Origin: Chloroflexota bacterium
GTDB lineage: Bacteria; Chloroflexota; Anaerolineae; J036; Brachytrichaceae
DNA: 64,000 bases
NCBI GenBank assembly: GCA_030550095.1
Contig: JAUQQA010000004.1
Span: 1 to 64,000 of the forward strand
Reading direction: 5' to 3'
Below are positions 1 to 4,946 of the stretch, piece after piece. Under the pieces are notes generated by a model. The model saw only the letters and a list, made by a program, of their open reading frames with translations. It ran no database searches and was not told the origin of the DNA. Each line of letters starts with the position of its first letter. Position 1 is the first letter of the stretch. The position numbers and the translations under genes are program-made.

Positions 1-2191
1 CAAGCTCGCGCAGCGCGAGCGCGGGTTGGTTTGTTTGCCCATTCCGTTCTTGGGCAAAGGAGAGGCGCAGTGCACGCTTTGCGCGCGTGATGCCGACGTA
101 GAGCAGCCGCAGCCGCTCAGCGATGTACTCGAGATACGCGCCGCGGATCAGCACACGCACGTCATCCACGGGAAGCTTTGCGTGGAGTTGCTCGAGCACT
201 GTGCGCGCCTCCGCGCGCGGATCGTGCCCGTTGAGAAACCACAGCTGTCCTCGAAACCGCCCCTCAGGATCGTGCGGAAACTCCCACTCGTCCACGCCGA
301 TTAGGTAAACGCGATCCCATTCTAACCCCTTCGCTTTGTGCATCGTCGTCACAGTAACCTGCCCGGGCACTGGCTCAAAGCCACCCTCGATCAACGTGTT
401 GCTGAGGTAACGACGCTGGTTTTCAGCGATCTCGTGCAGCAGCAGCGCTGCATCGGAAAGCTGCGCGGCAGGAGCGTTCACCACGTAGCGCCGCAAGCTG
501 ACCGCGATGCTATGTGCGATGGCAAATTCGTTGTCCTGATGCAACACGTCTTGCGCAACGGTGAGGACGAATTGATCCACTGGCTGCAGACTAGCGCGCA
601 GCCAACGCGCCGCGAGCGTGGTGAGATGGTGCAAGGCGCGCGTTTGCGCCTCGCTGAGCGTCACACTGGGCGGCAGCGCAAGCAAGGCATCTGGGGTTGG
701 GAATAAGCGCTGCTCGATGTGGGCGCTGCGCAACACAGCAGCAAGCGTGCGATCCTCAGCGAAGGGCGCCAACGCGGGCACGCGCGGCGCTACCTCACGC
801 AAAAGCTCAGCCAGCGCATTCTGGCGCGCAGGTGAGGCACAAAACCGCACCACAGCGCCCAATACACGCGCCACATCGCGCACTGGTTGTGCGTTGCGCA
901 ATTGGTCTTGGTAAATCGGTCGCGTGTGGAGTTTTTGCAAATCCGCAAGTTGAGCGACGACTAGCGAGCCGTAGAAGTTAGTCGGCGCCAACACGGCGCA
1001 CGTGCGCTCAGGGTGTTTCAGCACATACTCGGCAGCGCTTTTCGCCACGCGCTTTACTTCATCATCAATGGTCCGAAAGGCGCATGCTGCAACGGCGGGC
1101 TTCTCTGGCGCAGGGTTCTGCTGTGCGTCGCCTGGCGGGGTGGGTTGAATGCGCGCGTGGTCGGAAAGCGCGATTTTGCGCACAAGGATTTCTGGGTGCT
1201 CGCGCGTCGCCCATTCGACGAGCTTGTTCGCAAATGCGATGATGGGATGGGCGCTGCGCCCGCTCACGCTCAACGGCAGCGCGGTCACGTCGGGGCGCTC
1301 GCAAAACTCGCGGAAGAAACGCACGTTGGCGGTGGTGAAAGTGGTCATGATCGCTTGATTCGCGTCGCCGACGCGCACCCAGTTGCCGTGATCGCACGCC
1401 AATCGCTTAAGGATTTCCTCTTGCAGCGGCGTGCTGTCTTGGGCTTCGTCTTCGAGGATGAAGAACCAACGCGCGCCGAGCCGCTTGCGGAAGGCGGCGT
1501 CGTTGTCGAGCGCGCGCACAGCGCCCCACACGAGGTCGTCGAAGTCAACGCGCCCTGCTGCTTGAAGCACGCGCTCATAGCGCTGATAAATTTTCCAACC
1601 CAGCTCGAGGAAGGGCGAGGGATTGCTGTAATCCTGCAACAGCTTTTCCAGCTCCTCAGGGCGCAGGCGCAAATTTTTTGCGAGGCGGATCACCTCTTCG
1701 CCCAGCTCGTATGTTGCCTCGCGCCAACGCTCCAGCGCGTCGTCGCGCTGCTTTGGATCGAGTTCGGGCAGGAAACTCTCCCAGTAGCCGCGCTCGGTGC
1801 TGATCACCCAGCTCACGGCGTCTTGCAGCGTGCGCTGACCGCTCAGCTCGTCGTCGAGGCGATAGTCATCGCTCAAGCCAGCCAGATCAGGACGTTCGCG
1901 CAGGATAGCGTTTGCTAGGCCGTGGAGTGTGAGCACGCGATAGCCAGCATCAGGCAGGTTGCGTGCTCTGAGGCGCTCGCGGATGCGCCTGCGGATGTTA
2001 TCCACCGCGCTGTTGGTGAAGGTCACCACAAGCACCTCGCTTTCTGGCGGCAAGGCAGTCGCGATCAACTCCACAGCAAGCGCGGCTAAGGTGAACGTCT
2101 TGCCGCTGCCAGGCACAGCATTCACAGCAAGCTTGCCCCCACGGTAGGCGACGATGTGTTGCTGCTCTGGGCGCAAGTCGGGTAAGCTCAT
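1..2191 (-). CDS. UvrD/PcrA-type superfamily 1 DNA helicase (3' end cut by window)
   Basis: ATP-dependent 3'-5' DNA helicase of the UvrD/Rep/PcrA group, normally acting in repair, replication restart or with a nuclease partner. The frame is open for 730 codons from ATG 2191 to the window edge. In order I see Walker A (AVPGSGKT, about residues 25-32), motif Ia (TFTNSAVDN, about 55), motif II (DEAQDS, about 248), motif III (VGDANQAI), motif V (TMHKAKGLEWDRV, about 617) and motif VI (LLYVGITRAKR, about 698). All helicase motifs are therefore inside the window and only the C-terminal tail is missing. The start codon overlaps the stop of the upstream Uma2-like gene as ATGA, so the two are probably translationally coupled. 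Any C-terminal nuclease domain would lie outside the window. Confidence 0.93.
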   Translation of the reverse strand, partial: MSLPDLRPEQQHIVAYRGGKLAVNAVPGSGKTFTLAALAVELIATALPPESEVLVVTFTNSAVDNIRRRIRERLRARNLPDAGYRVLTLHGLANAILRERPDLAGLSDDYRLDDELSGQRTLQDAVSWVISTERGYWESFLPELDPKQRDDALERWREATYELGEEVIRLAKNLRLRPEELEKLLQDYSNPSPFLELGWKIYQRYERVLQAAGRVDFDDLVWGAVRALDNDAAFRKRLGARWFFILEDEAQDSTPLQEEILKRLACDHGNWVRVGDANQAIMTTFTTANVRFFREFCERPDVTALPLSVSGRSAHPIIAFANKLVEWATREHPEILVRKIALSDHARIQPTPPGDAQQNPAPEKPAVAACAFRTIDDEVKRVAKSAAEYVLKHPERTCAVLAPTNFYGSLVVAQLADLQKLHTRPIYQDQLRNAQPVRDVARVLGAVVRFCASPARQNALAELLREVAPRVPALAPFAEDRTLAAVLRSAHIEQRLFPTPDALLALPPSVTLSEAQTRALHHLTTLAARWLRASLQPVDQFVLTVAQDVLHQDNEFAIAHSIAVSLRRYVVNAPAAQLSDAALLLHEIAENQRRYLSNTLIEGGFEPVPGQVTVTTMHKAKGLEWDRVYLIGVDEWEFPHDPEGRFRGQLWFLNGHDPRAEARTVLEQLHAKLPVDDVRVLIRGAYLEYIAERLRLLYVGITRAKRALRLSFAQERNGQTNQPALALREL

Positions 2192-2691
2192 TTCTCCACC
2201 AACCCCCACCACTCCAGCATGGTCAACAAGCGTGGCTGACGGCGCAGCCAGATCACAGGCAACGCAAGCGGCACAATCGCTGCTGAATGGTAAATCCCTT
2301 TTGCGTCTGGCGGGATGAGATCGTAGTGCCAGTTGGCATCGGCTTGGTAAAACGCAGCGCGCCCGCGATCCGCATCCACTTGCCAATACTCAAGCACGTG
2401 CGCGGCTGCGTAACGCGCGCGGAGCTCCGCGCGCTCTGCTTCTGGCACACGGCTGTGTAACACATCTATCGCCAGCGGCACGGGACAATACACGGCATCA
2501 GCTTTAGTGTGTGCGCGCTCTGCATCTGAGAGGTAAACCACATCAGGGGTAAGCACCTCGCCGTTGGCGTGGATCACCGCGCCGGGTCCGAGCACGGCAC
2601 CGAGTTCGTATGCCTCGACGACAGCAGTGAGCAACGCGATCAGCCAAGCGCGCTGCTTTGCCTGCAACACGGCAAACGGGTTAGGGGTCAT
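2188..2691 (-). CDS. Uma2-family (DUF820) endonuclease-like protein
   Basis: Uma2 proteins belong to the PD-(D/E)XK nuclease superfamily. The characteristic order is visible: a PDVVYLS strand, then a hydrophobic strand (PLAIDVL), then RYAAAHVLEYWQVD, the counterpart of the family's K..LY..aGV.EYW signature. The protein is 167 aa from ATG 2691; an ATG at 2727 would add 12 residues and overlap the upstream gene by 14 bp, and neither start has a clear ribosome-binding site. Two catalytic positions look altered: the usual Glu of the second strand is Asp, and the Lys four residues before the conserved Tyr appears to be Leu. It may therefore be a weak or inactive nuclease. The stop overlaps the helicase start by 4 bp. 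Confidence 0.75.
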   Translation of the reverse strand: MTPNPFAVLQAKQRAWLIALLTAVVEAYELGAVLGPGAVIHANGEVLTPDVVYLSDAERAHTKADAVYCPVPLAIDVLHSRVPEAERAELRARYAAAHVLEYWQVDADRGRAAFYQADANWHYDLIPPDAKGIYHSAAIVPLALPVIWLRRQPRLLTMLEWWGLVEK

Positions 2692-2713
2692 GTGCGGCGC
2701 GGAGTGTAGCGCG

Positions 2714-3481
2714 CTACGCCAAGCCATGCGCGCGCATTTGCTGCACGCGCGCTAAGGCAACTGCACGCGCTTGCTCGGCAAAATCCACGCGACGCGAGGC
2801 GTAAATCACCGTGTGGGCGGCGACCACGAGCGCGCCCACGCCAGCGCGCGTTTTGCCCCATTGCGCAAGCGACTGCCAATCGAGATCGCGCGCTTCGGTG
2901 CGGATGAGCAACACTGCATCTGGCGCAGCGGCGCGCAAGGCGCGCAACCCTTCTGCGTCTGCGTGTGCCGTTGCAACACCGACCGCAGCCGATGCCTCGC
3001 CCGCAAGGAAAGGCTCAAGCATCTGTGGGGCTGTGAGGAGCGAATCCGTCCAAAAGAACACGCCCTTGTCCCGCGCGCTGAGGAAAGGCGCCAGCGCAGC
3101 CGAGGAGGCACAAGCCGCCACGGTTACGGCGTCGGCGCGGAACGCCTCGAACGCGCCGCGAGCGTAGGCAGGCGCATCGTGTGCAGAGCCGGCAAAAGCG
3201 CCGTCGAAGATCAACACAGCATCCTCGGGGATCAGCCGCACGATGCGCTCGAGCGCCACCATCCCCGCTGCACCCTCAGCGAGGTAAAAGGCAGGGTTCA
3301 CCACGTAGGCGCAGGCGAGATCAGCCGTTGCCTCAACGATCGCGCGTGCGAAGGGCAACATTGGCTCGTCGTAAGGCTGCACAGGCAGCGGCGTATGCGC
3401 AGTGAGCACGTCCAGCGCAATGCCCAGCCACGAACCCCGCTGCTGCTGGGCATGTCGCAGCTTCTCCCAAAAAGGTTTCAT
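2714..3481 (-). CDS. Orotidine-5'-phosphate decarboxylase-like protein (PyrF type 2 fold) lacking catalytic residues
   Basis: The 255-aa protein keeps the overall layout of type 2 OMP decarboxylases: FWEKL at the N-terminus, LGIALD (Asp24), AYVVNPAFY (58-66), FDGAFAGSA (92-100), YARGAFEAFRADAVTV, and a C-terminal AARTVIYAS-like strand. The catalytic positions are replaced. The Lys of AYKPN is Val60, and the DxKxxD motif reads D93-x-A-x-x-G, so both the catalytic Lys and the second Asp are gone. The NPYLG phosphate loop is AACASS. It is unlikely to decarboxylate OMP. The start ATG 3481 is chosen because a TACAAT box lies 7 nt upstream; a longer version from 3526 would run through the divergent promoter. 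It is the first gene of the leftward unit with Uma2 and the helicase. Confidence 0.8.
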   Translation of the reverse strand: MKPFWEKLRHAQQQRGSWLGIALDVLTAHTPLPVQPYDEPMLPFARAIVEATADLACAYVVNPAFYLAEGAAGMVALERIVRLIPEDAVLIFDGAFAGSAHDAPAYARGAFEAFRADAVTVAACASSAALAPFLSARDKGVFFWTDSLLTAPQMLEPFLAGEASAAVGVATAHADAEGLRALRAAAPDAVLLIRTEARDLDWQSLAQWGKTRAGVGALVVAAHTVIYASRRVDFAEQARAVALARVQQMRAHGLA

Positions 3482-3546: not shown

Positions 3547-4191
3547 ATGAAAATCGCAGTTCTTGGAGGCACAGGCAAAGAAGGCTCTGGGCTGGCATTG
3601 CGCTGGGCGCATGCTGGGCACGCGGTAATCATTGGCTCGCGCGATGCTGACAAAGCCAAGCGCGCGGCTGAGGAACTGAACCAAATGCTGGGTCAGCCAC
3701 GGGTGCAAGGCATGGACAACCTCAGCGCAGCTCAGGCGGCTGAGGTGGTGGTGCTCAGCGTGCCCTACGCCGCGCATCTCGACACGCTCAACGCCGTGCG
3801 CTCGGCGCTGGCGGGCAAAGTGGTGATTGACGTGACCGTGCCGCTCGACCCGCAGGATATTACGCGCGTCCGCGTGCCTCCTGCTGGTTCGGCTGCAAAA
3901 GAAGCCCAAGCCGCTGTGCCCGAGGCGCACATCGTCGCTGCTTTTCAGAACATCTCCGCCACTCACTTGAAAAAACTCGATGCCGTCATTGACTGCGACG
4001 TGCTTGTATGCGCCGACGACGAAGCGGCGCGGCGCGTCGGCATGCAACTGGCGCAAGATGCAGGGATGCGCGCCTGGGACGCTGGCCCGCTGGATAACGC
4101 TGTGGTCGTCGAGGGGCTGACGCCGATCTTGCTCGGCATCAACAAACGCCACAAGGTCAAAGGGGCAGGCATTCGCATCACAGGCGCGTGA
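3547..4191 (+). CDS. npdG: NADPH-dependent F420 reductase (F420H2:NADP oxidoreductase)
   Basis: Transfers hydride between NADPH and coenzyme F420 in the cytoplasm. The 214-aa protein begins with a Rossmann motif, MKIAVLGGTGKEGSGLALRWA, followed by the GSRD segment that reads the NADP 2'-phosphate. VVVLSVPYAAH and the KVVIDVTVPL strand follow, then AAFQNISATHLKKL and the C-terminal TPILLGINKRHKVKGAGIRITG typical of Fno/NpdG. The start ATG is preceded by AAAGGAG six bases upstream, and the TACAAT at 3512-3517 gives a normal leader. The next gene, cofE, makes the polyglutamate tail of F420, which supports the assignment. Confidence 0.9.
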   Translation: MKIAVLGGTGKEGSGLALRWAHAGHAVIIGSRDADKAKRAAEELNQMLGQPRVQGMDNLSAAQAAEVVVLSVPYAAHLDTLNAVRSALAGKVVIDVTVPLDPQDITRVRVPPAGSAAKEAQAAVPEAHIVAAFQNISATHLKKLDAVIDCDVLVCADDEAARRVGMQLAQDAGMRAWDAGPLDNAVVVEGLTPILLGINKRHKVKGAGIRITGA

Positions 4192-4199
4192 GAGCGCAT

Positions 4200-4946
4200 A
4201 TGGTGCTGCTCCAGCCAGTGCTCGGGCTGCCTTTGGTGCGCAGCGGTGATGATCTCGCCGCGCTGCTTGCTGCGCCGCTGCGCGCGCTCCAAGCCCGCGA
4301 GGGCGATGTGCTTGTCGTCGCGTCGAAGGTCGTTGCCAAGGCTGAAGGGCGCTTTGTGGACCTGCGCACGGTCGTCCCCTCACGCGAGGCGCAAGCGCTT
4401 GCTGAGCGCACGCACAAAGACCCTCGCTTGGTTGAGGTGATCTTGCGTGAGTCGCAAGCGGTGGTGCGCGCCGCGCCAGGCGTGTTGATCACGCGCCACC
4501 GCCTTGGGTTCATCTCGGCGAACGCGGGCGTGGATCACTCCAACGTGAGCGAAGACGCGCTCATCGTGTTGCTGCTTCCACACAACCCCGATGCGAGCGC
4601 GCGCGCGCTGCGCGCTGCGCTGCATACGCAGCTCGGCGTTTGGCTCGGCGTGGTGATTGCCGACAGCCACGGTCGCCCGCACCGCTTGGGCACAGTGGGA
4701 GTTGCGGTGGGCGTGGCGGGGGTGCCAGGCGTTGAGGATTGGCGCGGGCGCCCTGACCTGTTCGGCTACCGCTTGCAACACACGGAGATCGGTTTTGCCG
4801 ACATGGTGGCGAGCGCAGCGACGTTAGTGATGGGGCAAGCAGCAGAAGGCGTGCCTGCAGTGCTGGTGCGCGGCTTGTCATTCACGCCGCGCGAAGGCAG
4901 CGCCGCGGAGATCATCCGCCCACCTGCGCTCGATCTGTTTTTGTGA
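4200..4946 (+). CDS. cofE: Coenzyme F420-0:L-glutamate ligase
   Basis: Adds gamma-linked glutamates to F420-0 using GTP. The 248-aa protein has the CofE pattern: VLVVASKVVAKAEGR near the N-terminus, the GFISANAGVDHSNV segment (about 103-116) with the conserved Asn/Asp residues, VVIADSHGRPHRLGTVGVAVG, and WRGRPDLFGYRLQHTEIGFAD. It is a stand-alone ligase without the nitroreductase domain of actinobacterial FbiB. An alternative GTG at 4188 would overlap the npdG stop as GTGA; ATG 4200 lies 8 nt after that stop. Either way the two F420 genes form one transcription unit. It converges with ruvC, leaving 5 bp. Confidence 0.9.
   Translation: MVLLQPVLGLPLVRSGDDLAALLAAPLRALQAREGDVLVVASKVVAKAEGRFVDLRTVVPSREAQALAERTHKDPRLVEVILRESQAVVRAAPGVLITRHRLGFISANAGVDHSNVSEDALIVLLLPHNPDASARALRAALHTQLGVWLGVVIADSHGRPHRLGTVGVAVGVAGVPGVEDWRGRPDLFGYRLQHTEIGFADMVASAATLVMGQAAEGVPAVLVRGLSFTPREGSAAEIIRPPALDLFL

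Follow-up and report, generated by a model that had tools for sequence, protein, structure and literature searches.

Background

OMP decarboxylase (OMPDC, PyrF), which catalyses the final reaction in the synthesis of uracil nucleotides, is nearly universal and a textbook example of a highly proficient enzyme. In yeast OMPDC the tetrad variants D91A, K93A and D96A are without detectable activity and K59A loses 1e5-fold, removal of the phosphate gripper lowers kcat/Km from 1.1e7 to 0.037 per M per s, and phosphate contacts provide much of the interaction energy with OMP (PMC12874384). Human OMPDC gives the same picture for tetrad and gripper (PMC12631982). Dead homologs of biosynthetic enzymes are described in eudicots: PDX1.2, homologous to a biosynthetic barrel enzyme but itself non-catalytic, is kept by its lineage and regulates vitamin B6 synthesis (PMC6829848), and a catalytically dead homolog in indole biosynthesis of core eudicots is retained for its metabolic role in a living pathway (PMC12727527). 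A literature search made mostly outside subscription journals returned no paper naming both 'orotidine' and 'pseudoenzyme' and no relevant report on PyrF pseudoenzymes or moonlighting; two papers that combine pyrF with moonlighting deal with pyrF-deleted one-hybrid strains and were set aside.

The gene considered here lies in a 64,000-nucleotide window (contig JAUQQA010000004.1, positions 1 to 64,000) of a Chloroflexota genome of the order Thermoflexales (G000, 97.4% complete), a group of bacteria from hot springs and sediments, as yet uncultured. It was compared across 28 genomes of the order, all of one family; Candidatus Roseilinea belongs in this order (PMC8446752). Its product resembles type-2 OMP decarboxylase (TIGR02127/PF00215) in fold, descent, syntenic position in relatives and the retention of Asp24 and Asp93; it differs in having no tetrad lysines, no second Asp of DxKxxD and no gripper, in scoring below both profile cut-offs, and in belonging to a genome without a pyrimidine pathway. 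The likeness to the eudicot proteins lies in the keeping of a dead homolog, however G000 holds no catalytic PyrF homolog at all, and across the family the pathway is gone or run by a foreign fusion protein.

The Protein and Its Lost Active Site

The ATG at 3481 agrees with the ortholog starts, and an open GTG is also found 15 codons upstream. The protein scores 64.9 bits against TIGR02127 (E 6e-18; curated cut-off 110.6, not reached) and 15.8 bits against PF00215 (cut-off 27, not reached), and its best PDB match by sequence is 4mjz (E 4e-24); by these scores its likeness to type-2 PyrF is far above chance. AF2, supplied with 11 orthologs, predicts a complete eight-stranded barrel (pLDDT 85.8, pTM 0.86), for which Foldseek ranks OMP decarboxylases first (4mjz, E 9e-17, TM 0.79). 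The (beta/alpha)8 barrel of the OMPDC superfamily is thus present, as the initial annotation, made from the DNA letters and their translations, had supposed in describing a type-2 PyrF fold with replaced catalytic residues. Coordinates are collected in Table 1.

Table 1. Features of the proposed pseudoenzyme locus, in window coordinates
Feature	Position	Strand	Evidence or remark
Gene for the putative PyrF-derived pseudoenzyme, 255 aa	2714..3481	(-)	ORF translation, profile search, AF2, Foldseek
Asp24 codon (= Asp37 of yeast OMPDC, ribosyl contact)	3410..3412	(-)	kept in 11/11 damaged orthologs
Residues 31-40, PLPVQPYDEP, loop after beta-1	3362..3391	(-)	P31-L32-P33, D38, E39, P40 invariant; L32, P33, D38, P40 family-specific
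Val60 codon, replaces first tetrad Lys	3302..3304	(-)	translation, ortholog alignment
Residues 69-82	3236..3277	(-)	E69, E78, R79, R82: no variation among degenerate orthologs, rare in PyrF of other Anaerolineae
D93-G-A95-F-A-G98, eroded DxKxxD, first Asp alone left	3188..3205	(-)	translation, ortholog alignment
Residues 195-202, site of lost gripper loop (GxGAQGGD where the site is intact)	2876..2899	(-)	
His223 codon, replaces phosphate-gripper Arg	2813..2815	(-)	ortholog alignment
Residues 228-230, ASR, conserved loop after beta-8	2792..2800	(-)	A228, S229 invariant
Uma2-family gene, directly behind the pseudoenzyme gene	2188..2727	(-)	14-nt overlap
UvrD-type helicase gene, third in the same-strand run	5..2191	(-)	4-nt overlap; kept behind the pair in G015

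Re-reading of the translation returned the residues given in that annotation, namely Val60, D93-x-A95-x-x-G98 and AACASS. Three of the four tetrad positions (V60, D93, A95, G98) are replaced. AACASS had been labelled the phosphate loop, and here the letters hold while the label does not: residues 122-127 follow beta-4 in the model, at the position of SPYxGS in family members with an intact active site. The real phosphate gripper consists of the loop after beta-7 and an Arg after beta-8, both of which are gone, and the annotation's point is strengthened by the loss of the loop together with the change of R223 to His. As three tetrad residues and the gripper are missing, decarboxylation by this protein is not expected.

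An ortholog with a damaged active site is found in 11 of the 28 family genomes; all 11 have open reading frames and match TIGR02127. Conserved homologs without catalytic residues, as expected of a pseudoenzyme, extend across species. In every damaged ortholog D24, Y59, D93 and T120 are unchanged; they sit at the barrel mouth. Among the nine strongly changed orthologs, Asp24, Asp93 and Thr120 are kept in 9/9, with Lys60 retained in 3/9, Lys95 in 2/9, Asp98 in 1/9 and Thr102 in 0/9, and the gripper Gln and Arg in 1/9 and 4/9, respectively. Depending on the lineage, the Lys95 position carries Ala, Pro, Arg or Thr. G001 and G002 keep both lysines, their last Asp has become Glu, and the gripper loop is lost. 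The gripper Arg is kept in the copies of genera g2 and g3. Residue 223 is His in G000, G015, G014, G017, G016 and G022, all pyrimidine auxotrophs from at least three lineages, and the His in these lineages is possibly convergent.

Loss of Pyrimidine Synthesis

The initial annotation had suggested looking for a second, intact pyrF; G000 has none. A PF00215 search of the genome found no second PyrF, as the single further match, a candidate until inspected, turned out to be PdxS. No match above cut-off to pyrB, pyrC, pyrD (type-1 model) or pyrE was found in G000, G014, G015, G012, G017, G022 or G024, and the joint absence of four genes from each of seven fairly complete genomes is no assembly accident. 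The lack of another pyrF is explained by the loss of the entire de novo pathway, and is for that reason no argument for activity of the 255-residue protein.

In G016, pyrC, pyrD and pyrE are absent, and pyrB (G016:C76:2119-3024) is full length and interrupted by one in-frame TAA; it is a fresh pseudogene that marks a recent loss of pyrimidine synthesis. The uracil salvage gene upp is present in all eight of these genomes. G024 has lost pyrB, pyrC, pyrD and pyrE with the pyrF motifs (L043:7327-8187) still intact, and represents a first or intermediate stage of loss. In a control of 200 genomes of the class, 14 of the 15 pyrE-less genomes among those listed outside the family had no trace of pyrF, against 0/5 inside it (Fisher p 4e-4, kinship ignored); 17 further pyrE-less genomes stand outside those listed, and a very diverged pyrF copy could escape the search.

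Descent and Repeated Loss of the Active Site

Where the active site is intact, as in G010, G021 and G025, pyrF is followed by pyrE and pyrD, and a PMT-like gene precedes the intact pyrF in G013 and G021. That PMT-like gene also stands immediately ahead of the damaged pyrF of G012 and G017, where pyrE and pyrD are gone. By this synteny the damaged copy is an old, vertically inherited ortholog in its native place. G001, G003 and G006 (genera g2 and g3) carry an intact PyrF-PyrE fusion, related to those of other Anaerolineae, and the damaged native copy elsewhere in the genome. The loss has therefore two settings: lineages without pyrimidine synthesis, and lineages whose native PyrF was displaced by the fusion.

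On the rpoB tree the damaged copies belong to g1 with g5 (100/99), to g2 and g3 nearby, to G017, and to G016 with G022 (100/99), and four losses of the Lys95 equivalent are required. A gene tree of native copies only gives three degenerate groups, G017, G016 with G022, and the rest. By these trees the damage arose at least three times (gene tree) or four times (rpoB tree). Monophyly of all damaged copies in the gene tree was put down to long branches and shared losses, since the native-only tree returns G017 and G016/G022 to their relatives and an AU test allows a genus g7 clade.

Selection on the Damaged Gene

Under a codon model, dN/dS is 0.062 for G000-G015, 0.088 for G001-G002 and 0.23 for G016-G022, with omega = 1 rejected for all three pairs; for the older pairs omega is approximate, as their dS approaches saturation (1.1-2.5 by regional estimates). 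Close relatives with an intact site have an omega of 0.02-0.06. Because G000 and G015 share V60, A95 and H223, their divergence falls, by parsimony, wholly after the loss. In neutral simulations with one substitution per site, both frames remained open in 0/2000 runs for the two older pairs, and in 169/2000 for the young pair G016-G022. Read from these codon comparisons, the damaged gene is maintained by purifying selection. The annotated pseudo-enzyme that keeps its barrel outside any pyr operon is thereby borne out, and in addition it is conserved across species and under selection. As the catalytic residues are lost yet the gene is selected, the protein must do some other job.

Family-Specific Residues and the Model

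A residue was called family-specific if its conservation among intact members of the family reaches 90% or more and it is rare in other Anaerolineae PyrF. L32, P33, D38, P40, P43, A45, E69, E78, R79, R82 and S229 are kept in 9/9 strongly changed orthologs. Taken overall, family-specific against substrate columns give a merely suggestive difference (Mann-Whitney p 0.07), and the signal lies in the named sites. Family-specific sites concentrate in the N-terminal 92 residues, the slowest-evolving part of the protein; the middle is fast-evolving, and the stretch from beta-4 to beta-7, loops included, differs greatly in length and sequence from one ortholog to another. The model, read with the known geometry of this fold, puts the invariant loops on the catalytic face of the barrel. 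Its confidence is lowest in the conserved loops 27-38 and 226-231, which may order upon binding; alternatively, the low confidence may only reflect a shallow alignment. The family-specific residues could be fold-stabilising instead.

A scan of about 85,000 species genomes with the motif DEP[ML][LV]PFAR gave 22 confirmed loci, which correspond to genomes of the Thermoflexales family under study; where a record is named, the name is Thermoflexales, Roseilinea or a broader one (Chloroflexota or uncultured MAG). At 216 residues, the ortholog of G003 (L035:8012-8662) seems to have lost one beta-alpha unit of the barrel; its model shows seven strands but is of low confidence (pLDDT 67.8) and serves as no more than a hint.

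What the Protein May Do

That the active site is lost, the pathway lost or replaced, the damage repeated and the gene under purifying selection can be read from the sequences themselves. The explanation that we consider rather probable is that the protein is a pseudoenzyme derived from the native type-2 OMP decarboxylase of Thermoflexales, with a putative second function, probably partner binding, that is older than the loss of decarboxylation and outlives it. The native PyrF would already have had this second, non-decarboxylating function before the losses, since intact and damaged copies have the family-specific residues fixed in common; it would reside in the N-terminal half and, on one barrel face, in the loops that follow beta-1, beta-2 and beta-8, which most likely offer a binding surface to another protein. 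Decarboxylation would later have become dispensable, either through salvage of uracil or through the acquisition of a PyrF-PyrE fusion, so that the second function alone was kept and the region from beta-4 to beta-7 became free to change or shrink.

The main rival is a new enzyme, in which the half-pocket of D24, Y59, D93 and T120 and the loops after beta-1, beta-2 and beta-8 would bind and convert another compound. These four residues are kept at the barrel mouth in every damaged ortholog and the catalytic face is also where the invariant loops are found, so a remodelled small-molecule or enzyme site fits as well as a protein surface, and the OMPDC fold does host other reactions, those of KGPDC and HPS. 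We give this rival about one chance in a handful, as the variability of beta-4 to beta-7, the barrel of G003 that seems short of one unit and the lack of shared metabolic neighbours all speak against it. That the gene is instead a dying relic, on its way out after its pathway, would agree with the loss of the pathway from the same genomes, with the fast-evolving middle of the protein and with the youngest cases, G016 and G022, whose omega is well above that of intact close relatives. Against it, all 11 frames are open, omega is 0.06-0.09 long after the loss, the family-specific blocks are invariant, and G001, G003 and G006 retain the copy alongside a replacement that looks functional. A relic is accordingly judged improbable.

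The initial annotation had thought of a ligand sensor, and a sensor of pyrimidine supply that still binds UMP or a related nucleotide would suit genomes that depend on uracil salvage and a protein that keeps Asp24. A sensor of the old ligand finds no support in the deep orthologs, which have lost the ribosyl contacts Lys60 and Thr102, the gripper for phosphate and most of the substrate positions; given the weight of the phosphate contacts in yeast OMPDC (PMC12874384), and as salvage genes are not adjacent, this role is very unlikely. Hardly credible at all is an OMP decarboxylase working with other catalytic residues: the protein is the only PyrF homolog in its genome, but pyrB, pyrC, pyrD and pyrE, which would supply its OMP, are all absent, and tetrad and gripper are lost. 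Mere decay and residual decarboxylase activity are both disfavoured.

Returning to the partner-binding pseudoenzyme, its wider form has in our estimate an even chance of being right: the Thermoflexales OMP decarboxylase would be a moonlighting protein that has had a partner-binding function on its family-specific surface from the stem of the family, and has shed catalysis at least three or four times independently, even where a foreign PyrF-PyrE fusion displaced the enzyme. An unnoticed role of PyrF in this group is indicated, and the repeated loss of catalysis from a protein that is itself retained amounts to a natural experiment in which its two functions come apart. Such genes should not be named pyrF, nor taken as a sign of pyrimidine prototrophy.

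Gene Neighbourhood

The nuclease-like and helicase neighbours of the initial annotation are indeed a Uma2-family gene and a UvrD-type gene on the same strand, but this context is limited to the genus and absent from the orthologs of other genera. Of the neighbours, Uma2 alone recurs in each of the three species of the genus (69-78% identity; L038:1561-2094 and L039 from about 2750 in the congeners); it is still present in G014, where the wider neighbourhood differs, and the helicase follows in G000 and G015. Gene neighbourhoods across genera have no partner or metabolic neighbour in common. The usual motif of the Uma2 family is EVLS; the neighbour here reads IDVLHS, and its nuclease site may be altered. 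The divergent neighbours at 3550-4946 (+) encode an NADPH-dependent F420 reductase (npdG) and an F420-0:glutamate ligase (cofE), which indicates F420 use in the lineage.
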